A stretch of DNA of 64,000 nt from Lasiodiplodia sp. COLG20 (taxonomy: Eukaryota > Ascomycota > Dothideomycetes > Botryosphaeriales > Botryosphaeriaceae): contig VNWV01000001.1 of the NCBI GenBank assembly GCA_009801085.1, positions 310,001-374,000 of the forward strand, written 5' to 3'. Under the pieces are notes generated by a model that saw only the letters and a list, made by a program, of their open reading frames with translations, did no database searches and was not told the DNA's origin. Position numbers and translations under genes: made by a program. This document shows, in pieces, positions 4,263 through 48,027 of this stretch (within the stretch, counting starts at the first letter, position 1; every line of letters starts with the position of its first letter).

Positions 4263-7200
4263 TCACAACACCTCCCCCACCACCGGCCCAAACGGCACCG
4301 ACGCCTTCCTTCCCGGCCCCATCCCCACCTGCCCCTGCCCCGCCACCATTCCCACGACCCCATCCTCCTGCTGCACCATGACGACCGGACCTCCCTCTCT
4401 CCCCTCGCCGACCCCTCCATTCGCAACCCAGTTATCCAGCAACCTCCCCACCTCGCGGAAACTAACAGGCTTAGTCATGTACAAGTCGAACCCACTCGTA
4501 AACGCCTCGCTCTGATCGCGACCGCTCGCCAACCCCGTCAGCGCGACGATCAACGAAGGCGGCGGGCGCAGGTGCGGCATGTGCGGCGGCAGCTGCGCCG
4601 CGAATTCCGCTTCCAGCGCGCGGATGCGGCGGGTCGCCTCGAAGCCGTTCATGATGGGCATGCTGATGTCCATGAAGATGATGTCGGGTGGTGCTGGTAC
4701 GTGCTGGTGCTTGTTCTGGCCGTTTTGACCGTTCGTGTTCGTGTTCGTGTCGTTACCGAACAGCAGCGACTCGAACACAGCCACCGCCTCCGCGCCGTCG
4801 GCCGCAGAGTGCACGGCCGTGTATGCGCGCTTGCGCATGAATGTCTGCAGCAGGCGAAGGTTGACGGCGTTGTCGTCGACGAGCAGCAGGCGCGGCGTGC
4901 GCCCCCCGCCGCCGCCGCCGCCATTGTGCAGGCCGTGAGGCGTGGGCGTCTTGGAGCTGCGGCGGCTGCTGATGCTCTTGTGGCGGGTGGGCGTGACGGT
5001 GCCGGCCGTGTCGACGGACGAGGGTCTGTTGACGACGGTAGTGACGGTGGCAGAGTCGGCGAAAGGGCTGGGGGCTAATGACGGTTTGCGGACGAGGTCG
5101 GATAAGGAGTGGTTGTTATTGTTGTCGTTGCTCGTCACCGCGACGCCTTGAGAGCTCATCGGAGAGGCCGGGGGCGCTTCGTTCTGCAGTCGTTCCTGCG
5201 GCGTCCAGGACATTGTCCGGCTGTGCTCGAAGGGAGGTCGCTCTTCATGTGGTGGTGGGGCGGAGGAAGATGTCGTTCCATTGCCTCGGGGTGGTGCGGG
5301 TGCTGGGTCGGGGAATGGGAACTCTCCGTTCAGCTCTACCGGCGGGATGGCGTTAGGAGAAGGTAGTGTATCCATGGCCATGTGGGCGTTCATGCTCTCG
5401 TCGTTACCGAGGATGTCGCCTTGATGGAGGACGCTCAAGGTTTCTGGCGCGCCGTTACGGTTCGTATTCAATGTTATTTGCTCGACGCGAGTCACCACCT
5501 CATCAACAAAAATGTCCTCTGTGGTCTCCGGCGAGACGACAGAATCCGCGATACTGCTAGGGCTGATCTTTTTGGCTCGCTTGTCCATGACGTTCTGCAG
5601 CGCCTTGGCTAGCTTGTATGGACCAACAGGCCTGGGCAAGTACTCCAGGTTTACGTGCTTCATCAGTTCGTCTGTGGCAGAGTATTTGCTAGTACCGGCG
5701 CGAATGACGAGGAGCATAGGGCCACTTGACAAGTTCCCCCTCAAGCATGGGCAGAGCTCGAGGAGATACGGCAGGTCAACTTCGTCGACCGTGATGAGGT
5801 CGGGTTGAGTCTCAGGACACCAATTGAAGACATCCGAAAAGCCGTACCAGTCCTTGAGGAAGCATTCGAGCGAAGCTTTCTCGAGTTCCAACGCACGGGT
5901 GGTAAGAGGGCTCGTAAGTTTCTCGTAATCTGGTGGCCTGAACATCGCCGCCGTCATTCCGGATGCGGTCAGCCTGACGGAGTTCAGGCAAGACTGGATG
6001 GGTCGGTGGCTGCCACCAGTTCCGGTGCTGGCCGCCGTGCCCGTAGACGAGGCGGGAGCTGACGCTGGTGTCGTGGTCGAATTGGTACTACTGCTGCCAC
6101 CACCACCCTTGACCATTGGTAGTGTCACCACTACGTCGGTACCGACGCCAAGCGCGCTTCTGATGTTGATATCGCCGTTGAGCATGTCAACGATGGATCG
6201 CACTAGAGACAGGCCAAGCCCAGTTCCTGGGTTAATGGGATTTTCCTGCGCGAAGGGCGTGAAGAGCTTGGTCCTGAGATATTCAGGCGAGATGCCTTGC
6301 CCCGAATCGGATATCGTAAGGGTAACGATACTGGTGGCGGGAAGATCTTGAGTACCGTTTGTGTTTTGAGACGGCGCATCCTTGATATCCTTGGCGCTGA
6401 GGCTCACCCGGATGAAACCATTCCTGGTGTACTTGATTGCGTTTCCAAAAAGGTTCATGACAATACGCCGGACAGCTCCTGGCTGCGTAATAAAGTCCCA
6501 CCTACGCGCCTCGATATTCATGATAATCTCCACGGCTGGTCGTGTTGCCTTTTGTGAGACTCCATCTTCCAGCGTACCCAGGTTCCGATTGGGTGCTCCT
6601 TGGAGTTTGTCATCCGCATTCTCAAAGGTGGTAATGTCCCGGAAAACGTGGCCTAACGCCACCCCTGCAACGACTTCCTCCGTTATGGCTGCGAGGTCCA
6701 CGGCGTCATAGATGTTGAGGGTGGGTTGCTGCATTATCGGATGTAGTGCATTTTGAGCACTTCCGTCCTTGCGCGATTTCCTTGCTTTCCGAATATTCCT
6801 TTCAAACGAGTTGATCTTGGAGTAATCCAGAACCATGTTGATGGTATCCAAAAGTGTCCGTGCACAGCTGTCAGCCGTTGATACCAAAGATTTCTGGTAC
6901 GACGAACATTCCGTGTCTTCCAGGAATTCGCAGGATGCCAGGATGCCGTGCAGGGGCGAGCGGAGTTCGTGCGAAATGGATCCGATGAAATCGCTCTTCT
7001 GCTGGTCCGAAGCCATAGTCGCAAGACGGGCGACTTCGGTCATAACGCAGCTGCAGAAGGCTATAGTGTGGAGAAAATCGGGGTTGTGGCCAAAAGTCCG
7101 GAAATCCGAGGTGTTGTAAACGAAGCAAGCGACCCAAGACTCAATCTGAACGTCCCAGAGGGGAACAAAAATGACCTGGCGAGCTCCTGGGAAGTGCCGG

Positions 7201-16622: not shown

Positions 16623-17280
16623 ATGGTCAAGACCTCCGTCCTCAACGATGCGCTCAACGCCATCAACAACGCCGAGAAGGCCGGCAAGCGCCAGGTCCTG
16701 ATCAGGCCCAGCTCCAAGGTCATCATCAAGTTCCTGCACGTCATGCAGAAGCACGGTACGTCGCGGCTTTCCTCCATCGGTCTTCGCAGTTTACAACCCC
16801 TTCCCCTCCTCGGGCATATAACTACCTAATGGTTGGAATTGCACCACAACCTTTGGGCTTTAAGTGTCCGAAAGATCAAACTCTGCGAAGATCTTACACG
16901 TTTTCTGATTTTTTCTGTGATTTCCAACGTTTAATCTTCCGCAACATGCTGATTGAATTTTTCTCAGGCTACATTGGCGAGTTCGAGGAGGTCGATGACC
17001 ACCGCAACGGCAAGATCGTTGTCCAGCTCAACGGCCGTCTCAACAAGACCGGTGTCATCTCTCCCCGCTACAACGTCCAGCTCAAGGACCTCGAGAAGTG
17101 GGTCGTCAAGCTCCTCCCCTCGCGTCAGTTCGGCTGCATCGTCCTCACCACCTCCGCTGGTATCATGGACCGTAAGTTACCCAAGTCTCTAATTTTCTTG
17201 ATCCAATTACTGATTGGTCTGCAGACGAGGAGGCCAGGAGGAAGCACGTCGCTGGCAAGATCCTTGGTTTCTTCTACTAG
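16623..17280 (+). CDS. RPS22: 40S ribosomal protein S22 (uS8)
   Basis: Exons 16623-16755, 16968-17171 and 17225-17280 give 130 residues, the usual length. The sequence begins [19 protein letters not shown] and contains the uS8 signatures [40 protein letters not shown] and [15 protein letters not shown]. It ends with [12 protein letters not shown]. uS8 is an early-binding protein of the small subunit that contacts the central domain of 18S rRNA. Intron 1 is 212 bp, long for this window; I looked for box C/D snoRNA motifs in it and found no convincing pair. The gene is divergent from the LysM gene and 455 bp upstream of the Tfc7-like gene. Confidence 0.98.
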
Positions 17281-32074: not shown

Positions 32075-34086
32075 ATGCCCTCAACGCCCGACGAGGACAA
32101 CCTGTCCGATGTCTCCTCCCCGCTCGAGTCGCCCACGAGCCCCGACATTCCCTCGCCTTCGTCGCCGCTGGCACAGCCGCCGCTCAACCGCGCCGCCTCA
32201 GCCGCGCCCTCCACCTCCGGCATGACGGTTTCGTCGACACCATTGGGCAATCTCAACGCGCTCCGCAACCCGCAGAAGCCCAACCCGCCCAAGCCCAGCG
32301 GCACCAACCTGCCCCAGGATATCCTCGAGCGCATGAAGGCCGTCCACATGGGCAGGCAACGCGCCCCGCCACCCAACCCGCGCGCGCCCCCTACGAGCGC
32401 TCAGAGTCCCCTGCCTCAGTCGCCGGGCGGCGCCTTTGTCGGTGGCGTTCCGCAGAACTTCCGACTGCCTGGCCAGCCCGGGAAGCCGGGCATCAGTCAC
32501 TTCCCCTCCGCTCCTGCCGTGCCTAACCTGCAGAAGAGGTCGTTGGCAGAGAAGCGTGGCATGGTTCTGCCTGGAGGCCTTCCCGGCGCAGCCCCCAATG
32601 GGAGCCCTGCGCCTGGCGGTAGGAAGAAGCCCGGCTTCACTCTGAAGGATATCAATGGTGGTGTTGACGCGAAGCCCATTGTCGGCTCGAAGATCGACGA
32701 GTATAACAAGTACTTGGACAAGGAAACCGGCAGCTTGAACTTTGCCGGCAAAGCCACGCTGACCGGAGAGGGCGTCAAATTCGCAAATGGCTCCACCTTC
32801 AGCATATCTCTGGATGAGGTGGAAACTCTGGACGAGTTGGGCAAAGGCAATTACGGCACCGTGTACAAGGTCAGACACGCCCGGCCGCAGATGAGAAGAC
32901 CAGGACTCGGTCTGGCTGGAAACAAAGCCTATTCCATGCCCGCAGTCCCCGGCTCGCCGGTGAACAAAAGCGAGTCGTCGGCCGAGTCGAGTCCGACGGC
33001 CGCCAAGTCTGGTGCCGCCACGTCGGGCAAGGTCATGGCCATGAAGGAGATTCGCCTGGAGTTGGATGATGCCAAGTTCGCCGCCATCATTATGGAGCTC
33101 GACATCCTGCACCGGTGTGTCTCGCCTTACATCATCGACTTTTACGGTGCCTTTTTCCAAGACGGAGCAGTGTACATCTGCATGGAGTTCATGGACGGCG
33201 GGTCGATAGACAAGCTATACGGCGAGGGTATTCCTGAGAATGTGCTGAGGAAGATCACGCTTGCGACAACCATGGGTCTGAAGGCTCTGAAGGATGAACA
33301 CAACATCATTCACCGTGATGTTAAGCCAACCAACATCCTCATCAACACCAGGGGCCAGGTCAAGATTTGCGATTTTGGTGTCAGTGGCAATTTGGTCGCC
33401 AGTATCGCCAAGACAAACATCGGTTGTCAGAGCTACATGGCTCCGGAGAGGATATCGAGTGGAGGCGTTGCACAGGCCGGTGCCAATCCGGGCGGTGGCA
33501 CTTACAGCGTGCAGAGCGACATCTGGAGTCTGGGATTGACCATCATCGAGTGCGCCATGGGCAGATACCCCTACCCGCCTGAGACGTACAACAACATCTT
33601 CAGTCAGCTCAGCGTAAGTCATATGCGACCCCCTTCGTGCTTCACATCAACTAATGACGCCAACAGGCAATCGTCGATGGCGAACCCCCGGACCTCCCCG
33701 CTGAAGGTTTCTCCGAGGCAGCAAAGAACTTTGTTCGTGGCTGTCTGAACAAGATTCCTAACCTCCGCCCCACCTATGCCATGCTGCTTCAACACGCGTG
33801 GCTGGCACCTCTCCTAAAGCCCGCCACCATTTCCGAGGAGGAGGAAGAAAACGGTGGAGACGATTCGGCAACCGGTCCTCATGTCGATTATACTGGGACA
33901 GAAGCACCGGAGGACCCAGAGGTCGCTCAATGGGTTAACGACGCCCTGGAGAAGAAGCGGGCCGGCACGCTGGCGCAAAGCCTGAAGCCCGCGCTGCATG
34001 CTGCCCCTCTGGATGCAGTATCAAGCCCTCAAGGAACCCCATCGGCTACACCTGACGTTCCACCGCCCCCTCCTGCCGAGGAGTAG
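32075..34086 (+). CDS. PBS2: MAP kinase kinase of the high-osmolarity (HOG) pathway
   Basis: Exons 32075-33613 and 33667-34086 give 652 residues. A proline/serine-rich N-terminus of about 240 residues precedes the kinase domain. That domain has the glycine loop GKGNYGTVYKV (256-266), catalytic Lys about 324 (VMAMKEIRLEL), HRDVKPTN with Asp about 415, and DFG at 433-435. The activation segment GNLVASIAKTNIGCQSYMAP holds the Ser443/Thr447 pair that MAPKKKs phosphorylate. The sequence and the insertion after the glycine loop are those of filamentous Pbs2/PbsB and fission-yeast Wis1. Pbs2 activates the Hog1/SakA MAPK under osmotic and oxidative stress. The yeast Sho1-binding motif KPLPPLP is not visible in the N-terminus. 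The C-terminus is acidic, then proline-rich. Confidence 0.96.
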
Positions 34087-36691
34087 TAAACAACTTTGTA
34101 CGATTTTCTGTTTGTGTTACGACGGGAAAAGCGAAGACGATCGTTTTGCACGAAATGCGCATGTTCCAATTCATCTATTCGCCTGGGGCGAAATAGGGTC
34201 TCTTCTGATCACGAAGCAACAATGAATTTTCTTATCTTCTCCTGTAAGGCATAAGAGAGTTGGGATGTTTGATCGGTTTTCTCACACGGCGAAATGCTTG
34301 CAGACTATGTGGGTTTGATGGGATGGCGAGGGTATGGGAATGGGAAGATTCACGTTCGTAAAGGGATTATCGGATGCGGGCAATGGGAAAGTTGAAGAGA
34401 AGAACGGGTCTTTGTCGGGCGTCTCTTGTTTCATACCGGAACCGAAGCTACCCTTATTCCTCCCTTTTTACTATACACATGGGGGTTCTTATTTTCCTTT
34501 CCTCTACCTTTACAAATTCCTGTCTTCCATAATTCACATTTTCATCCAAAAATTTTCTTTTCTGTCGAACTCCTTTACGAAAGTTTTTATGCTTGAGTGC
34601 AGAGTAAATCCCTCAATGGCTAATTCGTTCGTACACTCGGCCCATGTTTCGTTGCATTGTTTGTTCCTGTTGCCTTGCGCCACGGCAGGTTTTCAAAACA
34701 CTTGAGCCATGAGAGCCTAGTTCTGAGAAAGTACAACACAAAGTTGTGGGCAGCCAGAGCAACTGCCCAGACGTAGATGTAGAATTGATAACCGTACAAG
34801 AACGCCTAGACGATAGGTCTCATTACTCACGTAAGTAAAGTGCGAACCTCCCTGCAAGCATGATTACGAGTAATCAACTGTTTTGAACCTTTGATGGCAT
34901 ACATATGAGGTTCGTTTGTCTGGGTGCACCGAGAGATGCTGCACTCTTCTTCCGTGAGCAGTTGGAGTAGATGACCGGATATATATGTGAGCCTTTGAAG
35001 TGGTCGGGTATAATCGGATTGTTGAGATCCAAAAAAAAAAAAAAAAAAAGAGGCTGGAATACGGATATCAAGCTTAATCCCTGGCTTGTGATCGTACCCG
35101 GTGGGAGAGTTTTGAGAAGGTTTTATCTTTATTTTTTTTTTAGCTTTTGCAACCTGCTGTCACGAGAGCTTCTGGTTTTTCTCTGATAGAGTAAACGAAA
35201 GATCCAACACTCGTGATAGCCTTTACCTCGACACTAGGTAACCTAGCAGATAATTAGGATGAGTGGGAAGGGAAACAGAAGTATGAGGTCAAGCAGGGGG
35301 TTCGTATGTCTAAATAGAAAATAACGCAGTGCGTTGCAAAGATGTAAGTCGTCTGTGCACCGTGAAGGATGCTACACTTTCTCAACGTGGGAAGCTGAAG
35401 CAAAGGTCTTGATGCATGTGTACCATCTGCAAAACCGGGTTTAATTCTAGATATCTGCTTCGAATTTCCGCCTTAAAAAAACGTAATGTAGTCGTTTTTA
35501 GTACCGCTCCAATGCTCAAATATATTGCAACACAAGGAATGATGGTATTATTTCCTAATTGTCTAGCTATACCTTTCACTCTTGGAATACGTTCTCATCT
35601 GCTCTTCTCTCTTATCCGCGTGAGAATATGTGAAGTGAGGAGCCGGAAATCTAAGTACGAAGCTCGAGGAACAGGGTCGGGTGACGTTGACCGCATGCAT
35701 TCCCCCTCTCCCTTGACAACTCTAACCTTAAAGCACGCAAGCCGAGTCTATCTCTCCCACATTCCCGTCTTCCTCTTTCTTTCACGCTTGTTCCCGTACA
35801 CTAGTGATCTCCACACGCCGTGGGAAGTCACCCGACCGGCCAATACAACGCGTCCTTTCGTCCGGCGCGGCGCGCGTCGGCCCCTCTCCCCCTCCCCATC
35901 CCCCCTCTGCTGATCGAATGGGGAGATCTCGCCATGGCGTGCTGAGGGGGCAGAGGGAGAATTGAGGGGGTGCGCGCGCTTGGACCTTCGCTTTTCCCTT
36001 TTGTCCATTCTCTCTCTCTCTGCCTTTTGTTCTTTCCCCCGTCTGAAAAGTGCTCGAACCACTTTCGTGTCGATCGGATTACTTACGATATTACCGGCCC
36101 CTCTGGCCCCGCCGCCCCAGAAGGGAAAGACATCGATCCTTCCTACTACTTGCTGCTGTCTTTTCTCCTTATTAGTAAGTTTTTTCTTTTTTGCTCTCCC
36201 CATCTCCGCATGATCACCGTCCCATGTATATGCGCTTTCTTTATTTGGGGTTGGGGTATCCACTTGTTTCTTGCCTGTTCTGTTTACGATTGGCGCTGGC
36301 GGCGGGGGCGTCGGTGCGGGCGGTGGGGACACACGCTCGCAACAACTCACGCTTACACGACACAGAGATGTGCTGGAAGGTTTGTCTCTCTCTCTCTAGT
36401 CGCTGGCGTTCATCACACCTCCTGGATGCTTGCTTTTACGTGCACGCACGACCGTCGTGTACGAGAACCTCCTGAGCCTTTCCTTCCCTTTTTTTTCCCT
36501 TCGCTTTTGTTCCCTTTTCTGGCAGAGCACTGCCTCGCAAAAAAATCCGCTCGTGTGCACGTACGATGTGGTCTGTACTCGCCTTCCTTGTTCAGCCTTC
36601 TGGATTCCTTTCGCCAAAATTTTTGATCGTTGTTATAGGATGTCCGTTTTCTTAATGAAACCGTCTTCGCGGGTTTTTCCTATGATCGAGA
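34087..36691. other. Gene-free stretch upstream of the motif array
   Basis: These 2.6 kb between PBS2 and the repeat array are AT-leaning, with a run of 19 A at 35031-35049. No protein gene is supported. From about 35990 to 36650 the + strand becomes promoter-like, as described separately. Confidence 0.5.
35990..36650 (+). promoter_or_regulatory. Possible promoter and 5' exon of a non-coding transcript
   Basis: The + strand has CT-rich blocks (TCTCTCTCTCTGCC near 36010) typical of fungal transcription start regions. A strong donor GTAAGT follows at 36175-36180, and a polypyrimidine tract ending in AG at 36398-36399 (TCTCTCTCTCTAG) is a good acceptor for a 225-bp intron. No coding frame of recognisable character is joined by this intron. 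The region points into the motif array, so it could start a long transcript across it. This is inference. Confidence 0.3.
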
Positions 36692-38133
36692 CGGCATTCG
36701 CCTTCAGACGTTTGATGTTCTGCTCAGCATGAACGGGTCGGTAGAAATGGGTGGGGAGGATGGGTGACGTGGTGTGAGTGCCGTCTTTTTTTTTTGTTTA
36801 CTTTTTGCTCGGAACTTTGGCAGGACAGTATACCTTCGTCTCGATGGTCAATGGAACTCAAGACATGTTATGCAGGGGGAGTGTAGCTGTATGGTGACGA
36901 AACATAGAAATAAGTAAAAGGTACTTTTTGTACATGTGGGATGATCCTGGAAGCCACGTTGGAGTCGGGACGTCTGGGGGAAAGGATTGACGGGGTGGAA
37001 AGATGATGTGTGCAGTGCATACGGAAGAGAGCAAGATCTGCCTCATCCAGACGTTCGAACGTCGTCCGGGGGATCCCAACGAGACGTTCGACGTTCGGCA
37101 CGCTCCGTCTGACTGTAACGTTGGCAACGACGAAGCATCCAGCCGCGGCGGACATAGCCGCCAGACGTTCGAAGATGAGCACGGGGTATGTACACGAAAG
37201 CAAATAATAATAAGGCTGCATCGCGATCCGCGGAAGTGCCCGCATTGAAAACGGTTGGCGGATGCACCCGATGGCGATCTCCGCCACTCCGACGGCGGAA
37301 GCGGCCTTCAGACGTTCGATGTTGGGCGGAACGCGCCTATAGGTGAGCTTTTTGTCAAAGGGTGTGTCGAATTAGACATTCGAGGATCGCCGCAACCCGG
37401 GAAAGAGCGGAAGCGCCCGAGTAAATTGAGCGTGCAGGGGTTCGGCCGTCGGATTTGCTGTCTGTGTCTGGATTGTTTTATTTCTTTTGCGCACAACCCA
37501 TCCCCAACGCACGTTTCGCGGCGGGTCGCCTTTCACACACATCACAGGGAATATGGTGGCGGTAGCGGGCGGAGATAGCCATCAGACGTTCGAGGGAAAA
37601 GCAGAGAGATGGTAGTTGCGGACGGAGTAGGCCGAAGAGGAAAACAACGAGCGTTTCCACGATGGTGGTCGGTGCACGGAGGTTCTGTTCGGGGCTCTAG
37701 ACTAAGTACATGGGTCCGGTATTCTTCGGAATGGCCCGAGAGAAACAGGAACCGGTATTTTCATGGGAGCGCTGCAATCAGGGGGTGTTTTGAACCCCCG
37801 AAATGTTCTTTTGGGAATTAGGGGAAGGAATGGTGAGGACGGCTGAGCCCGAAGGGGTCATCGCTGGAGGTTGGACCAGCGGGTTACTCGATTCGGCAAG
37901 GTGATCCTGAGGACTGAACCGCAGGCATTCCTGAAGGCTCTGAAGGAAGAGCAGGATGGAGACTATTCGAATCCCGGCAGTTTTGCTCACGAGTAGGATA
38001 TCGCGGACGTGTGGGAAAAGGTGCGTCTAGACGTAGGGCTTTTAATCGGCAAACCGCATCTCTGGTTCACATCTTCTCCGGACCACGTGGTTGGTAGCGT
38101 CGTCGACGAGCATACGAAAGAGCCTGAGGGGCC

Positions 38134-38163
38134 GGCGGTCTTTCTCACGGCGTGAGAACCGCC
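38134..38163. repeat. Strong hairpin inside the array
   Basis: GGCGG and TTCTCAC pair with GTGAGAA and CCGCC around a GGC loop, with one three-base bulge: 12 base pairs in 30 bases. It ends about 7 bp before the motif copy at 38170-38190. Confidence 0.6.
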
Positions 38164-38194
38164 GAGAACGGATTCCGACGTTCGATGTTGCTCG

Positions 38195-38482
38195 ATTATG
38201 ACCGAGTAACGGCAGGTCTGGTCCCTTCTTTTTGTGGAAGTCTTTCGGTAGTCGTGGTGCGGAGTAAAATCTCTCGGTCGTTGAGAGCGCGGGGTGGACG
38301 TATTTTGTGGTAGGCTACGAACCCTTGGTTCCGCACGTCATTCCTTCGCTCTGCTGACGAGCCTAACGGAATCGCTTCCACTTCAGTGTAGGATGGGCTT
38401 TCGGGAGCTTCGGGGCGATTCTCCAGCGAGCTGAGAGACGGACAGCTGTGGCGTAGCTGATGCTCAGTCAATTATGACCGAG
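38195..38482 (+). repeat. 12-bp direct repeat pair inside the array
   Basis: ATTATGACCGAG occurs at 38195-38206 and again at 38471-38482, 276 bp apart. The first copy directly follows a motif copy; the second does not. It is the only exact spacer repeat of this length I noticed in the array. Confidence 0.55.
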
Positions 38483-41400
38483 CCTTATCCGCGGCTCACT
38501 CTGCAGATCATCCTCCACTACTGCACTGCTGATCTGAGGCGTGCATAAGTACGTCCCGCCGTTGTGGCTCAGCCTTTGAGATGGAACATCATGCTTTTGA
38601 TGAGGCATTTTTCATAATGCCTCAGCTGGAATCAGATTTCGCTGACCATACATACAGCATTCACGGTGGGTTTGGACTGGACATTGTTATGTCTGTGGCG
38701 AACATCCACAACGATCTTTTTTTTTTTTCAAGGTTCTTGGGGGTGAAGAGGTAATAAATATCTATTGAAAGGTGATGATGATCCCTCCGGATTTTAAAGG
38801 TGGCTTGTATGTCCGCCGCTACACGTGCTCGGCGGCTTCCCCGGAAGGATCTCTTAGCTGCTCGAATCTGGGGCACCGGCCTCGTGTCTCGTATATCGGG
38901 TGCTGATCAGCTAGCAAACAGTGAAGACAGCCAATTATCGGGGCGTGGCGGCGGCAGTTGTCGTCGGTGTGCAGTAGAATGATGATGCCAAAGGAAATGG
39001 CATGGGCTCCAGCTTTGTTCAAGATCATCGGAAGGATCATTTTAGACGGGTGGGAGCAATTTATAGTGCAGAAGTTAAAATGGAAGATTAAAAAGTAGGT
39101 GGCTTGGCAGAATTGAAGCAGATGTGCTCAGCGATGACCCTTGCAGCTGCAGGGCATCCCGCACGAGTAATGGCTGTGCAGGCGATCATCAGAGATGCGC
39201 CGCGTGGGTAATGTCCGGTGGGTCGGAGGCACCCTGCACAGCATTTCCGGTAGCTGGTCTGGAGAGACCATGACGAACCGGGCAAGCCCACGCAGAGGAT
39301 TTTTTGAGACGTTTGAAGCTGTTGCTACGAGCGAATCAGCGCCCCATCCCCGGCCGATTTCAAGGCGCCGTTAGAGCGGTGCGGCTCAAAATCTGCTCGG
39401 ATGACTTCCCAATGAAGTAATCGTGACGGGTCTACTTCACATGTATTCCTCCGCAGGATTTCTCGCGACGTTCAATCTTGACGCCTACACGAGACACCAG
39501 AGCTGCTGTGGCATGGTCCAGACGTTGCACTGATTCCGCAGGTGGGTCAGTCCGTCGCGTAGTGCGCGGAAGGAATTTTTCAGATGTTGGATGTTGTCTG
39601 GAGAGATAGTACCATATCGATACCTCGAGCTACAACCCCAACGCAATGGAGAATCAAGACCTTGAATCCACAGAGCGTACCAAGTGTTTCAACAACACTT
39701 CCCACGCCGAGTCAGGACATGGCCGGTTATGCAAGCAATCGCCCTCAGCCACCGGCGCTGTACACGATTCAAACCACCATCACCTCATTACACGGTATCC
39801 ATTATGCAGGCGAGACATCGCACATCGCTTCCATTTCTTTTGGAGAACCGCCGAAGGAATCCCTCAGACGTTGGAAGTTGGAAGGGGATTCACGAATCGT
39901 AGAGGGCGGAGGCAAAAAGCAAGGAGGAAAAGGTTACCTCTGCATGCACACTAGTCTTGGGGGGGAGCATGTCACCGGGCCGCATGCTGTGGACTACGTG
40001 GACCGCAGGGCTCGCGGGCCCTCTTCTCCCCCATGTCACGGCAGCAAATACCAAAACGGGTAACAGCAGGGGTTTTCAGACGTTCGAAGTTGAGCCTCAC
40101 CCCGGATTCCTCTCGTTTATTTTATTTTTTTTCTGGGGCCGTTTGGAGGGGAAACTGGTCTCTGTCCAGGGGTGGGTGTGGGCGAGCGCTCGGAGTTTGG
40201 TGAGGCTCCCTTTTAGCATTTCCCCATGCGGTAATGGGTTGCGGAGAAACCGCCGTACCCGAGGGAGCGGTTCCTCCGACACCATTGATGGTTTTCGCAT
40301 CGTCCCTGGAGCAGGGGGCCGTACCTTGGTACATAAAGAAAGGCCGAGGCAAATTAATGGACAGACGAAAGATCTAGAATAATGCAAACAATATAGGTAC
40401 GGGCGTAACGAAATGGCGGAGGGTCGGTGCACCGGGTGGCTACCGGTGTCAACGGCAAATCTTGCCAGTGACCATGACTGCGACCTCCCGAAGGATTCCT
40501 CCAGACGTTCGACGTTATGGCGGTTTGCTTTTTTCCATATCTTATTTCCTTGGGCCTGGGGAAAGGCTAAAAGGTCGGCCGATGGCAGCACGGCCCTGCA
40601 GATCGTAGAGCTTGCCCTATGGAATGTCATTTCGTCTGTACAACTGCCAAATCGGGTAATCTGGCTGAGGCTTAATCTATTAAGCTCTCAAGGATTTGAT
40701 GCGACGTTCGAGGTTGAGGCTTGAAGAGAGTCGTGTATAACGCTTGCAGACCTGGGCCCAGCGGTGAGGCAGATGGCTTTCGGAAGGAACCATTCAGACG
40801 TCCAAACTTGAAGGGCTCCTGCTCCACAAGACAGCCAGCTGTATGCATGCAGACGACGTGGCTCAGGAACGACGTGGCTCACTCGGGCATGGCCTGAGCG
40901 CTGAGGTCTGGAGAGAGGCTCGGCCGCTTTGTGGAGCTCGGCAACCGGAAGGATCCTCTCGGTCGCCCAAACACATTCAACCACACTTTGCACGTATTCT
41001 TCCTGTCGCGGCAGTCGGAGATGCGGCCCAACTGCACTACTCGTCCGCGTGGTCCACGGATCCTTTTGCGGAGCCCGCTGCGAAAAAGCTCCCATTCGAA
41101 GGGACAGGCGGTGTCGTCGTCAGGAGGAGTGAGGCGTGCAATCAGCCACCCACGAGGATCCCGGCCAAAATCCATTCAGGATTCCGGAGGTGGTTCCGGC
41201 AGGTGGAAGATGGCGCCTGGCGAGCCATGTGGAAGCCATGGAAGCCTTCGATTGCCAGCAGAAGGGCCATGTGGCCTCCGAATCGACGTCGGTTTCGCTC
41301 CATCATCGCCCCGACTGCGCCGGAAAAACCCTAGGTATACACTGCTCTGGGACCGAACGACGGTTGCCAACCAGAACAGCTGGCCCCGGATCATGCCGTC

Positions 41401-44093
41401 AGCCGGACAACCACGACCTTCAGCCACCGGCAGCAGCCGTCAAGCCGCAGAGCCGCCATGGCAAGGGAAGCTCCTCTGCTGCGTTCGACCTCTCGTCAAG
41501 GCATTAGGCTAGGGGAAAACGTGAACCTGGGGGAGTCGTTGGGGCTCCCCACACTGGCGCAGTCCGCCTTTGCCTGGTTCTGGAACGGAGCCACGACGGT
41601 TGCGCCACCATCCTATAGGGCGGTGCGGCTTCTTCCACCCCTCCTTCAGGAACAGGCTTTCCTCCGGCCGATTTGTTGGTGCAAGGCCACTTGAAAAACC
41701 AGGGCCGGCCATGCTGCTGCGTCCGAAGTTGTTGTTCGGCACATTGTGAATCAGCAGAACTGCCGCTTCGCTGGGAGAGCACTGACTGGCTCGTTCAATA
41801 GCGTCGGCGAAAACCCAAACCACCAACCATACAAACGTGTCCATCACAAGGAAGGAGTTTTTGCTACGTTTGATCTTTCATCTCGCTGCTCCGACGTCTG
41901 ACGTGGGAAACCACGTAGGATCTCCTTTTTATTTATTATTTTCTCCCACCGCTGCGTGACAAGCCCATGCCTCGGCTCGGGCCTCCTGGGTGCGCTGATC
42001 TCCCAAAGGACCCTCACACCGGTGTTGACCCAGTCCACTGCCTGTCTGAGTAAGCGCCCCCGGACGACCTGCCCCATGCGGCAGGGCCTGGTGGATATCT
42101 GCCTTTGGTGAGTAATCATTCAGGGTGTCTGGGTGATCAACGCGATCCTCGCATCGTGGAAAGGATTATTTGCTGCGTCGGAAGTTTGATCTGCCCATGA
42201 CTTCGTGGTTGCGACCCTTGACTAGCATGGGCGTGTTTGATCCTCCGTATGGATTTTGTAGGGCGGCCAACGGCAGTGTGAGCTGGCACACACACGTGGT
42301 CGTCTGCAACGATCCTCCCAAGATCCTTCTCATATGCAGTCCCACCCAACAACACCTTCAACAGCAGCAGGAGAAGCGTAGAAGCTGCCGTCTAACATGA
42401 AGCCAGCACCTATGAGAGAATCAAATGTGGACTTGATACTGGTATGTAGCCCCCGATCTGCGCCTGCACCATGCACAACATCGAGGGTCAATGCGATCAA
42501 AGAGCCCATGGTACCGGGCTCTCTCTCCCTCCATCGGCGATCTCAGTCCACGATGCCGGAAAGGATTTTTTGCTACGTTCGAACTTCCTTCATTCCTGAC
42601 CGCCGTGGCACATGGTAAACGGTAGGGCCAGGCCTCTGACCATTGTGTGAACACCCTGCACATTGGGAAGTGGAGCACTCCCCAGCAAATGCTATAGCGC
42701 TACCGCAACGTTCGGAAAGGATTCCTTGCTACGTTCAAAGTTGAGCAGAAATCGGGACCCCAGCGCTAGGAAATGCTCAGGATGGCTCCACTTTCTGAAT
42801 ATCCAGGGGCACGAGAGGGAAGGACCTAGGTGGTGGGGGGTTAGGGCGGCAACGGGGGGAAGGGAGGGGAGGCATCCCGAGGACAAAGCACGCGCGAAAG
42901 CGTCCGGTAAGGATTCCGACCGACGTTCGAAGTTGGACTGGGGATAGATTATGATTGGAGAAAAGGAGGGGTTAACCCGGATCGTGGTTAAGGGGAGGAA
43001 GCAAAAGAAGCTTTTTTATTTTTTTATTTCCAACGGAGTGGAGGTAAGGGTTGGTGGAACGGACCGAAACAGCACGACACACCTCACCAACAGATCGATC
43101 CCCGCGGAAGCGCCGGCTATCGGCGCCCACCGAGGTCCGAGAGCTCATAGTATGCCCGTCATTCGTGCCGATTCTGCTGCCGAGAGAGTGCTTTGTTTCA
43201 TTGATGTGCAATGCTGTCCCTGGGAATACCGCCGAAGATGTGGGGAATGGGCCATGCAAGAATGGTCCGATACAGATCTATCCTTGCGGGGGGTGTTCAA
43301 GGGGCTGGCTTGCTTCCACCAGCACACGACCACCTCTAAAATCTCATAAGGATTTTTTGCTATGTTCGAGGGTCCTTCCAGTAGGCCGTACCGAGCATGG
43401 CCGGTGGAGCGGCTAGCAGCAATGATATGCTGGTAACCAAAGCAACCCTGAGCATACATGGCATGCACGGTGCTCCCCCGAACAGCCCCCCGTAAAGCCA
43501 TAGCCAAAGACTACAGGGTAGGAATATTTGCTACGTTCAAACTTGCACTGCATGGGCCATTGACTGCTGGCGAGAAACTCGGACGGTCCCAGGACGGTAC
43601 AGGAGAAGTGGAGGTAGCAGCTTGGACTCAGCGGGCCACACGCACAGCCATTACGGAGTGGCACATGGAAGGATCCCTTGCTTCGTCCGAAGTTGAGGCA
43701 ACATGCAGTGAGTAGTGCTCCGTGCCAAAGGGCCCAGAAGCGAGACGACGCCAATTGGGAGCATGTGCGTCGATGGAAGTGGGATAAGCTGTGTAAGCAC
43801 ATGGCATGTCAGCAGCGTTCGCGGCCTCCCTACGGGAACCAACCACCAAAGCACTTGGCTGACTGGAAGGATTTCTTGCTACGTTCGACGTTGCCCGGGT
43901 CGAGCATGGGTTGGACGAGGGACGGTATGCAGAAGAATGGCCGGGACGAAGACCGTGCACCGTAGGATGCGTACTGCATCCAGCAGGACGTGTACGCGGC
44001 GGATTCTGCTACGAGGGACCCCACAAACAATCTGAGCCAGCCACCAGCACGCTGTGCCGCTGGAAGGATCCTTTGCTACGTTCGAAAGTCGAC

Positions 44094-45784
44094 CCGAATG
44101 GGAGCGGCCTCCGCAACGGCCGCAAACGCCCATCGAAGTCTTAAGCTGGCTGGCCTCTTCCAAAGCGCCGAACTGTCCAAAACCAGGAAAGCCGACGAAT
44201 CAGCCGCCGCCGATGCGTCACATTAGAGCAAACCAGCAGAACAGTGTACATGACGCTGGGGCGGAACTTTAAAAGAGAGGACCCGACAGCGTGGTCGAAG
44301 GAAGCAACCACGTGCTCGGGGGCGTCTCATCCATCGTCTCCAAATCCTGTTGGAATCCCTCCTCTCTGAAAAGAGTCGAGGATCGGGAGGAAAAAGAAAA
44401 GTGAATGATGAATCCAACACAAAGCGGGACTGCGCCACCAATCGCATGCAGGCGACGTCAGCCCAGGCTTGTTTCCGATTGGTATACCCGTTGCAGTAAT
44501 CCCGCCTCTACGCCAGCCTGTGGCGCTGCGATGGATTCCAGACCGCAAATCCCACAAATCGCTCCCACTAGCGTCCGCCGACTCTAACTTAGCCTACCAC
44601 CGACGCACCCCTAACCCTTCGCGTACCCAGGAGCCATTTCGCAACACACTAAGAAAAAATAAACCTGCGAATGCGAGAACGAAGGAGGTGGTGGTGACTG
44701 AGGCCAACTTGGAAAGATCTGGTAAAGGAACAGGAAAGAAGGACGCCAAACCAACAAATCCTCCTCCTCGCCCGAGAACCTACCCCGTGCGCACTTATGC
44801 AAACCGAAACCATGGTTTAATACTGCTGACATTAGCGCAGCTCCCGGATACACATCCCTAATCAGGCAATAATTACAGCTAAAGGAGACAAGACACCACC
44901 AACACCCCCCAAACGAACCGAAAGCGATATCCATCCTGCCCTGCTTCCTTCAACCAAGAACGAAAGCGAACAACCCAGCATAACCACATGCGTCGATGAC
45001 TCGTCCGAAAAGCGGTCTGAGAAGGTCCAGAAGCCACACACACTACGTACTTGCCACCGAGATGTGGCGTTCTCTCTCGGGATTGCCGATTCTTCTTTAG
45101 ATAGTCACAGCCACCAGCCCCAGCCACAAAACTACTTGCCTCCACCCAAAAATCGCCTGACCTTTCGGCTACGATAGCCCTTCTGTATCTTGGGGGGCGT
45201 GCGCCGCCGTCATAAACCGCCGCGCGTAGTCTAGACCCTTCCACCACCCCCACCACATGCATGGCTGAGGGACGATGCAAGCTGAGAGATTAGGATTACG
45301 ATAGAGGGGCAGTTGAAGCATCCATTTGGACATGACTGCATGATATGCATGTGAACAAACGCATCTGGACGAGAGCTTCAACTCTCAGTTCTGTTGCAAT
45401 GTTAAACGAACCGACCTCGTGTGCACCGAGTACACGACACATCACAAATGAGTACCACTCGGGTCCGCCTGCGGACAAAGCCAAACATGTGTTAGCCGAA
45501 GCATTTGAAATAAGGAACATGCCGTTGCTACCTTCTCTGCCAAGTGTCTGTACAAACGAGTTTTTGATATCAAGATTAAGGTCCGAACCTCCCGCAAGCG
45601 CGTTGAAAGAGGAGAAGAAAAAGGGGGTATGTGATCTTCTGAACCACAACAGGGAAGAAGAACCCCCGGCGGCAGGGCAGCGGAGAATAACAAAAAGCAG
45701 CAGCAGCCTTTCTTTGCCTCGAAAAACGCCCAACCAATGCATACCAATCATACATCAAGAGGCCGCGACCCTTCTGTAACCCGC
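44094..45784. other. Gene-free stretch between the array and SEC63
   Basis: These 1.7 kb contain no motif copies and no supported gene. The right end is the 3' flank of SEC63. CCCTAACCC at 44608-44616 is a lone telomere-like nonamer. Confidence 0.5.
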
Positions 45785-48027
45785 TTACTCCTCGTCCGTG
45801 TCGGTGTCCGTCTCGCTGGTATCCGACTCCTCCTCTCCTTCCGTGTCACTGCCGCTGGACACTTCCACCTGGCGCCTGGGCTTCTTCGTCTCGCCACCCT
45901 TCATGGCCGCCATCTGTCCTGCAATAGTATCTATTCGCTCGTTAGCCTTGTGCTTATCAATCGTCATAGAGCCCTTGAACTTACCCTCATCCGGCTCGCT
46001 AATCTCCTCTTCCTCCTCGATCTCGACCGCCTTCGAAGGGTGGTCGACGACCAGAGTGACATCCATCTTAGTGTCCATACCGACGTAGCTGTCGCACACA
46101 AGGTGCATGGTGAACTTGTACTGGCCCGGTTGGGGCGGAGCACCGAACTGCATCTTCAGAGTCTGGACGTTGTAGGTAGGCTTGCCCTGCTCGTCGAACA
46201 GCGGCTTATCGAACTTGGTGAAGGTGAACGGGGGAACGGCGACCTTGTTCTGCCTGCCGTCGGCCAGGAAAACGTGCCATCTCGGCGAGTGGTCCCTAGC
46301 GAAGTACGGAGCGTATGCGAGCGGGGGCTGACCAGCCAGTTCAGCCTTCTTGGCCTCTTCAGCCTCAGCGCCCTTCTTGCGGCCGTGGAGAGCGTCCAAG
46401 TCGCCTTCCTTGGGATCAACGTCTTCAAGGTCCTTCTCGGAGACCGGAGGAACATTGGTGGAACCAGGAGGAATAATACGGGCCTTGACGACGAACTGAA
46501 CCAAACTGCTGGGGATGATGACCTTTTCGCCCATAACCTTGAAGAAGGCCTTCTCTACGTGCAGGTGCGGGAGCTGGCTGGCAACCTTTTCGGCGGTGGC
46601 GAATTCACTTTCAGACAGAAGACCAGCACCAACTGCACGCTTGCGCCTCTCGTCCACGGGCAAGCCCATGTATTCCTGAACGCTCAAGTGTGTCCTTGCG
46701 TTTTGACCCTCAACTGCGCGAACAATGGCGGGAGTGAAACCGGGAAGCTGGAGAAGCGGCGAAGACTTGGGAGGAATGGCTTGGAGGATATTTTGCGACG
46801 TGTGGTAAGACGACAGAAGAGGCGGGCTGTTGCCGTAGGCGAGAGCAACAGCGAACAAAGCGTCGTTGAGCTTGTGGGCGATAGGCGCAACCTCGAATTT
46901 CTCGGCATTGAGAGTCTGGTCCTCGAGCTCGACACGTCCAAGGTAAGCCCACAACAAGGCAAGTGCTTTCCTGCGCGCGCCTTCATCGAGTTCCTCCAGA
47001 GTCTGACGGTCCTTGACGCTGAGTCCTCCAGCGAGAGGTGACAGCTCACCCTCCTGGAAGAGCTTGGATTCAACCTTGGACAGACCGGCCTCAGCCTTGT
47101 GTCCCTTGAGTGCTTCCTCGAATTCAGTTCCGGTGCTGAGAGCAGAAAGAACGCCGCCTTCGCTCAGATCCGGCTTGTACTCCTTGAAGATGTTACCCGC
47201 GCTAGACACCAGGACCTTCTCCTTGGTGACGCGCTGAGTGCCATACCACCATTTGCCGACCAGGTAAGGGAGAACGACGCCCAGGACAATTCCGTAGCCG
47301 AGCAGAACATATCTGCCGTGGCCCTCGGTGACGATCCACTTGGGGAGAGCAATGCCAATGCTGAAGCTCTGCTTGCCGTCGGGGTGGCCATATTGCAGGT
47401 AGTTGTTGCGGACCTCTTCGTCGGTGAGAGCCTTGAAAGCCTTCGTGTACTCAACCCACTGGTCATTGATGGACTCAATGGTCAGATTCTTGGCCGGATC
47501 GGGTTGCACCTTGTCGGGGTGGTGGGTCAGGGAAAGTTTGCGGTAGTGAGACTTGATCTGCTTCTCGCTCGCGGACTGTGAAATGTTAGCGGAATTCTCT
47601 GCGGCATGCCTCGCGCGTGCTTACTCTAGCGACACCCAGAACGTCATACGGATCCCAGATCTTAGGTACGGTCCTCGCCGTCACGAGCATAAGGTAGACC
47701 ATCCATGCCATGACAAGCCAACCGCCCAGGGCGAAGAGAAACTTGCCCAGCTTGCGCTCCTGCCGGCGCAGCTTCTTGCGCTGACCATCGATAAGGTCGC
47801 CATGTTCGGGGGTGAAATCAGACTGTATTCTCGGAGCGGTATTCTCGAGATCCTTGCTGCGGGTGAGCAGCGAAATGGTTACCGGAATAGTAACCAGACC
47901 GGTGATGGTGGTGACGAAGTACGGGAAGAATTGTCCCTGCAGACGAAGTCAGCATGCTAACTGCGGGTGGCTGGCGGGCGGCGTCGTTTGCGCGGACCTG
48001 TTCGTCATAGTTGTAGTCGGTAGACAT
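45785..48027 (-). CDS. SEC63: ER translocation subunit Sec63 (J-domain protein)
   Basis: Exons 48027-47998, 47936-47625 and 47575-45785 give 710 residues, all introns in phase 0. Donor 1 is GTCCGC, unusual at +3 to +6. Helices are at about 12-35, 74-97 and, after the J domain, near 205-228. The J domain starts WDPYDVLGVARSASEKQIKS and has HPD at 133-135 (LTHHPDKV), facing the ER lumen and recruiting the Hsp70 Kar2/BiP. The cytosolic Sec63 domain includes LLQLPGFTPAIV and VPPFTFTKFDKP. The C-terminus is strongly acidic (GSDTEGEEESDTSETDTDTD), as needed for Sec62 contact in yeast. Sec63 joins the Sec61 channel for post-translational import. Length fits the family. Confidence 0.97.

Follow-up and report, generated by a model that had tools for sequence, protein, structure and literature searches.

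A one-strand array of 27 degenerate 30-nt motifs between PBS2 and a SEC63-like gene in Lasiodiplodia sp. COLG20, a candidate platform of composite protein-binding sites

In the oriP of Epstein-Barr virus (EBV), a protein-binding unit of 30 bp is repeated about 20 times in one direction to form the family of repeats, and composite transcription-factor sites are known to form homotypic clusters, as in the case of yeast Mcm1 and its partner. Here we describe an array of 27 copies of a degenerate 30-nt motif, all on the + strand at positions 36,692-44,091 of a 64,000-nt stretch (the window; C1:310001-374000, where C1 is contig VNWV01000001.1) in the 43.5 Mb, 88-contig assembly of the plant-dwelling Dothideomycete Lasiodiplodia sp. 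COLG20 (Botryosphaeriaceae). Like the EBV repeats it is made of one-way copies of a 30-bp unit, for which protein binding is predicted here; unlike them it has long unique spacers, and the core of its motif is dispersed over the genome. With the Mcm1-type clusters it has in common a core that is shared, with different neighbouring putative partner sites at each locus. Those clusters, however, are made of few promoter sites, whereas here about 27 one-strand units extend over 7.4 kb between convergent genes.

Of the described layouts considered, the nearest is that of the pairing centres of Caenorhabditis elegans, where arrays of a 12-bp motif are read by the zinc-finger proteins HIM-8/ZIM, assigned to particular chromosomes, with different motifs at different chromosomes (PMC7140621). 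The likeness is one of short-motif arrays in noncoding DNA (PMC7140621). The present array is not assigned to the pairing centres and differs from them in that all clusters share one half of the motif and several labels occur on one contig. A search of the literature at the level of titles (Lasiodiplodia, Dothideomycetes, fungal motif arrays, centromeres, pairing centres) found no such layout described.

The array and its one-strand motif

A matrix seeded with 24 hand-picked copies converged on 27 ungapped copies of the 30-nt motif, which is composed of a first half, a link triplet and a second half, the core. Leave-one-out (LOO) scores of the copies range from 9.7 to 37.9, and all 27 exceed the top score reached by their own matrix on either strand of the window outside 36,000-44,700 (maxima 8.4-10.8). 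A preliminary description had reported about 30 copies, always on the + strand, and proposed a matrix scan against shuffled sequence. Such a scan bears it out, since at scores of at least 12 the region contains 27 + sites and no - site, as against a mean of 0.06 and a maximum of 1 in 300 first-order shuffles read on both strands. LOO guards only partly against circularity, because the 27 copies were themselves selected by score; independent support for the array is the recurrence of the same core elsewhere in the genome. A sequence-only covariance model placed the same 27 + copies on top, each with at least 10.2 bits, the next best match having 9.6 bits at 46,783 and the one - match in the region having 6.9 bits and overlapping a + copy. 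Three further places on the + strand (38843-38855, 39030-39042 and 40947-40959) keep the first half GGAAGGAT alone, as decayed copies, and bring the total to the roughly 30 first reported. Within -100 to +99 of the motif all columns above 0.5 bit are inside the 30 nt, with no conservation beyond. The existence of the array as first described is confirmed.

The two-part unit of 30 nt stands; however, the first half was found to be less uniform than initially thought. Of the six copies at 36.7-37.6 kb, four have a different first half, CGG......GCC (type A), namely copies 1 (36692-36721, LOO 15.1), 4 (37149-37178, 12.1), 5 (37296-37325, 27.8) and 6 (37570-37599, 12.6); the other two, copies 2 (37035-37064, 12.0) and 3 (37068-37097, 13.6), have the core only. 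Copy 7 (38162-38191, 20.9) has an intermediate first half, and only from 39.3 kb on is the AAGGATT half joined to the core (type B, AAGGATT-like). Type B begins with copies 8 (39293-39322, 28.1), 9 (39452-39481, 28.8), 10 (39568-39597, 30.3) and 11 (39852-39881, 32.1), followed by copy 12 with a degenerate first half (40064-40093, 21.8) and copies 13 (40489-40518, 31.3), 14 (40688-40717, 22.8) and 15 (40782-40811, 29.2). Copies 16 (41465-41494, 12.5) and 17 (41703-41732, 9.7) are degenerate with a GCT link, and the same link accompanies a type B first half in copies 18 (41850-41879, 29.4), 19 (42159-42188, 23.9), 20 (42559-42588, 36.1), 21 (42715-42744, 37.2), 23 (43346-43375, 20.0), 24 (43517-43546, 28.9), 25 (43667-43696, 29.2), 26 (43865-43894, 37.9, the top score) and 27 (44062-44091, 28.1); copy 22 (42907-42936, 26.3), also of type B, has a CCG link.

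The sequence between copies had been described as apparently unique, with no transposon end to explain the array, and both observations are supported. Spacer alignments (300 upstream and 300 downstream pairs) gave scores like those of shuffled and reversed controls, and the 7.5-kb array has no match but itself in the genome at E 0.001, in a search that skips very common words. Copy-to-copy spacing is irregular, from 33 to 1131 bp. By eye, neighbours in this array and in a second one, L036 (see below), are often near 150 or 200 bp apart, which are nucleosome-like lengths.

Variation along the array differs between parts of the motif. The core shows no relation with position (r 0.017, p 0.57), whereas correlations are found for the link triplet (r -0.531, 0/5000) and for the first half (r -0.336, p 0.0002), in the latter case only via its two types, there being no trend within 39.3-44.1 kb (p 0.71). 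The core looks like a site at equilibrium, and the rest of the motif retains traces of duplication. Departures from the majority base in link and core comprise 83 transversions and 31 transitions, those in the first half 65 and 64; random change would give two transversions per transition. Link and core departures include A/C, G/T and G/C positions. By established chemistry, such departures can be accommodated by a protein whose contacts in the major groove are with amino and keto groups.

Both halves had also been considered partly palindromic, as in dimer-binding sites. For the TTCGAA dyad this is true of two pairs in eight, T7/A10 and A3/T14, complementary in 85% of copies each, and fails for the other six (11-63%). 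T6 is present in 27/27 copies and its partner A11 in 14/27, G5 lies opposite G12 (26% complementary) and C4 opposite T13 (11%). With half-sites so unequally conserved, a palindromic dimer-binding site is not supported and the site is read as asymmetric.

Several other identities were tried and rejected. In one frame many copies of the motif read (E/K)GF(L/F)(A/Q)TF(E/D)V; however, a protein-coding repeat does not agree with the information at codon positions 1, 2 and 3 (0.88, 1.01 and 1.00 bits), with in-frame stops in 20/26 intervals or with the 14/26 spacings that are not multiples of 3. A structured RNA element finds no support in a first-half hairpin paired at 73.0% against 73.7% when shuffled, and 25 copies give no consensus structure; folds of 24 single copies with flanks have, by eye, nothing in common. 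The B-box of TFIIIC (ETC/COC sites) has the consensus GWTCRANNC with an invariant C, and the window contains 27 matches where 42 are expected, none at the core of the 27 copies. The CENP-B box, with the consensus TTCGNNNNANNCGGG, is like the motif in being a long asymmetric site with a CG-N4-A spacing, but its CGGG part is absent here and the window contains 0 boxes (0.69 expected). A transposon-derived repeat likewise finds no support, as no dispersed copies turned up at E 0.001 in the search that skips very common words. What was found, a degenerate asymmetric core clustered above chance, fits a putative homotypic cluster of composite binding sites.

A genome-wide second half and an array-specific first half

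In the pattern searches of the genome, the same pattern read backwards served as control. MKACGTTCGANSTT is present exactly at 77 places, compared to 20 for the control, and by contig position the window array accounts for 9 of the 77, L036 for 4 and L031 for 10; for ACGTTCGANSTTG the counts are 56 and 23, and for MKACGTYNRANSTTG 111 and 48. When the first half is included, a pattern of 28 places with up to 3 mismatches finds 18 places, 15 of them in the window array, vs 0 for the control. GRAAGGATTYYTTGCT with up to 1 mismatch occurs 7 times in the array and 14 times elsewhere vs 7 for the control, so that no strong use outside the array is seen. The second half is a genome-wide motif and the first half is specific to the array, a difference that the preliminary description, made from the window only, could not show. 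Across the genome the cores are found on both strands, and a crude, low-sensitivity model placed none of 52 sites in 18 loci inside a coding open reading frame (ORF). Pfam searches of 20 ORFs flanking sites matched only HET, MFS_1, Sld3 and T5orf172/MUG113, and no common gene type emerged.

Other loci were fetched because the pattern searches had matches there, and were scanned for clusters with a matrix built only from the core of the window copies. L036 (C67, about 778.9-782.6 kb) proved to contain 12 + and 0 - sites, L031 (C67:2652000-2661900) 8 + and 8 - sites and L069 (C1:3373000-3373650, 651 bases) 4 + sites, as compared to a mean of 0.2 and a maximum of 2 in 60 shuffled sequences of 9.9 kb. 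The first half is GGAAGGATTYYTT in the window array and TCGANTCATT in L036, the second one-strand array. Ten of the 12 L036 sites have CGANTCR, a word picked after the sites were seen, no more than 16 nt upstream of the core; the word occurs 19 times on + and 11 times on - in the whole 9.9 kb of that locus. Small clusters seem to carry first halves of their own, GGCCGTA in L043, GCCTCGAGG in L069 and AACCGAG in L040. Several first halves therefore occur per contig (window, L069 and L040 on C1; L036 and L043 on C67).

Similarity of first halves was compared for 84 sites in 15 clusters. Thirteen loci supplied one cluster each and the window supplied two, having been divided at 38.5 kb once its two first-half types had been seen; 26 of the 27 window copies passed the cut. 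Identity of the first half (-13 to -3, 11 nt) is 0.442 within clusters and 0.266 between them, a value that 0/2000 label permutations reached, compared to 4/2000 for the core, 167/2000 for the next 11 nt upstream and 109 and 765/2000 for two downstream stretches. Because window pairs make up 192/385 of the pairs, the test was rerun without the window (L075 added, a shift of up to 2 nt, 60 sites, 14 loci), again with 0/3000 for the first half. L033 and L068 have inverted pairs which share longer flanks, in opposite directions; when these are also left out the first half stays at 0 and the neighbouring stretches are at 115, 66 and 154/3000. Seven clusters were also tested singly against random positions of the same locus (500 draws), and it was found that the four one-strand clusters share a first half (0/500 for L036, 0/500 for L043, 4/500 for L069 and 13/500 for L040) while the three with sites on both strands do not. 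Between loci, first halves are not shared: in 5197 pairs from 107 sites of 42 sources, with the overlapping pair L005/L032 excluded, the mean score is 5.83 upstream and downstream alike, with one upstream outlier (L031:2373 with L056) and a slightly longer downstream tail.

Some of these loci have features of their own. L031:2373 and L056, on different contigs, form the only compared locus pair with long homology flanking the core on both sides. The mixed-strand cores of L031, a locus 30-40 kb from the contig end, flank an MFS-type ORF on either side, and the locus resembles a regulated gene neighbourhood. L069 consists of degenerate tandem units of ~50 bp with the core and its first half, perhaps a young form of such arrays. 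In L068 (C1:3278900-3280300), two of three cores are by eye an inverted pair around an AT-rich middle, a transposon-like arrangement. In L033 the sites at 4874 and 5065 are an inverted pair 190 bp apart with ~22 nt 5' of the core in common.

Possible explanations of the array

As a tentative first choice, based on sequence comparison, we see in the array a platform on which proteins would bind composite sites in double-stranded DNA. The common asymmetric core MKACGTTCGANSTTG would be read by a single sequence-specific protein and used at many noncoding places of the genome; in the large arrays a further site a few bases 5' of each core, differing from array to array, would probably serve a partner protein or a second domain. 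The array may have been born by tandem amplification of one composite unit, after which the sites would have been retained and the spacers left to drift; such amplification would give a common strand and a common first half, and independent gain of cores would give mixed clusters. Holding about 27 sites within 7.4 kb, the array would enrich the factor at the PBS2-SEC63 interval and might act as a regulatory hub, a chromosome-organising hub or a titration sink. Selection on the motif in an interspersed binding-site array, one of the two proposals of the preliminary description, fits best with the free spacers, the fixed 30-nt unit, the genome-wide core and its position-independent variation. 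The platform is also favoured by the copy count against shuffles, the enrichment and clustering of the core, the likeness of first halves within clusters, the preponderance of transversions in link and core, the lack of sites in coding ORFs by the crude model and the presence of cores on both strands. What the sequence shows is the array, a core spread genome-wide, a first half particular to each array, unconstrained spacers and asymmetric conservation; selection, DNA binding by a protein, a partner and a tandem origin are inferred. The other proposal, of very old tandem units, is partly right as well, given the change of link triplet and first half along the array.

Some results weigh against the platform of binding sites. 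The enrichment of the core is weak for MKACGTTBGANSTTC (27 vs 19 for the control), shrinks when the search is loose, as for TTCAGACGTTCGAHSTTGA with up to 3 mismatches (102 vs 62), and is gone for the 17-mer GCTACGTTCGAAGTTGA at the same tolerance (144 vs 313), where the word read backwards belongs to a more common type. In the rerun without the window the neighbouring stretches, at 20, 30 and 87/3000, are also slightly more alike within clusters, and once the inverted pairs and L036 are left out as well (44 sites) the first half is no longer significant (188/3000), so it is mainly two arrays that carry the first-half result. The mixed-strand clusters L031 (190/500), L034 (365/500) and L039 (450/500), each taken alone, have no shared first half. 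A DNA-binding protein has no need of so strict a one-strand layout as the largest arrays show, and the support is drawn from the sequence of one genome.

The one-strand layout would also agree with an array at the level of RNA, if a long noncoding RNA from the + strand carried the motif as a repeated site for an RNA-binding protein or as a sponge, as in multi-site long noncoding RNAs. All 27 window copies and all 12 L036 sites are one-stranded, both arrays lack a coding ORF by crude models, and a promoter-like CT-rich stretch is seen by eye at about 35.9-36.5 kb. Elsewhere, however, the cores lie on both strands (L031 being taken here with 7 + and 7 -), no RNA structure is conserved, Rfam gives nothing at its gathering score within the gap, and the departures in link and core are mostly transversions, by which guide-RNA pairing would be broken. 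Moreover, in the clusters tested singly, one-strandedness coincides with a shared first half, the outcome expected of tandem duplication, and we regard an RNA-level array as unlikely. A similarly low probability is given to the relic of an old satellite, in which homogenisation and not selection would have kept one stretch of the tandem units and which would have no present function. The changing link triplet and first half, the seemingly younger form in L069 with the same core in its degenerate units, and the recurrence by eye of spacings near 150 and 200 bp would suit it; spacers without detectable similarity around a fixed ungapped 30-mer, core variation independent of position and the same core in unrelated contexts would not.

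The binding-site platform may also be extended to a fungal locus-addressing system, in which one conserved factor would read the common core and the arrays would add a repeated locus-specific code word, so that homologous or co-regulated loci could recognise each other or be addressed separately. We think this improbable; under it the window array is the largest address found in this analysis. More doubtful still, and proposed by analogy with the motif arrays of the C. elegans pairing centres, is a homology-address system where the core would recruit a shared machine and the first half would label the locus, for example in meiotic pairing of homologues. Common and locus-specific halves do occur together in five one-strand clusters (window, L036, L069, L043 and L040), but the label does not stand for a chromosome, because C1 and C67 each have several first halves. 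In C. elegans 21U-RNA clusters each small-RNA gene has its own promoter motif, and a constant element with unique sequence between copies recalls this arrangement. That the motif would be such a promoter element, with unique products between copies, is the least probable of these explanations, as the spacing is irregular and Rfam found only two tRNAs in 24 fetched loci, though novel small RNAs would escape Rfam.

Flanking genes and significance of the array

The array lies in an interval (33749-45784) between two ORFs identified by Pfam and homologue matches on both sides. Upstream on the + strand is a PBS2-type mitogen-activated protein kinase kinase ORF (32075-33748) with a Pkinase match, which over 92% of the query is 99% identical to PBS2 of Lasiodiplodia hormozganensis; as judged by eye, a further exon may carry the gene on to about 34.09 kb. 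Downstream on the - strand is a SEC63-like ORF (45785-47509) with a Sec63 Brl domain (E 7.7e-14). Gene tests in the interval covered 34,100-45,780, where a hexamer model trained on six window ORFs, which themselves score 1.0-1.4, gave negative coding scores for all 39 stop-to-stop ORFs of at least 100 aa. No Pfam match above cut-off was found for ten long ORFs of the gap, which also has 0 Rfam families at gathering score and 0 tRNA calls; at E up to 1 Rfam gave a single match, at chance level. The analysis shows that the gap holds no recognisable gene, in agreement with the gene-free region noted at the outset. Elsewhere, the window has a 5S rRNA gene at 1543-1662 and the snoRNA snR44 at 16808-16949. 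For 5.8S rRNA no match was obtained in the genome at E 0.001, and the ribosomal DNA may be absent from the assembly or may have been missed.

If the platform of composite sites is real, the genome of a Dothideomycete would contain arrays in which one half of the unit is shared and the other is locus-specific, both retained while all the sequence in between was replaced, and the array would point to a new DNA-binding factor. It would also be a clean natural case for how binding-site arrays arise, spread and persist.

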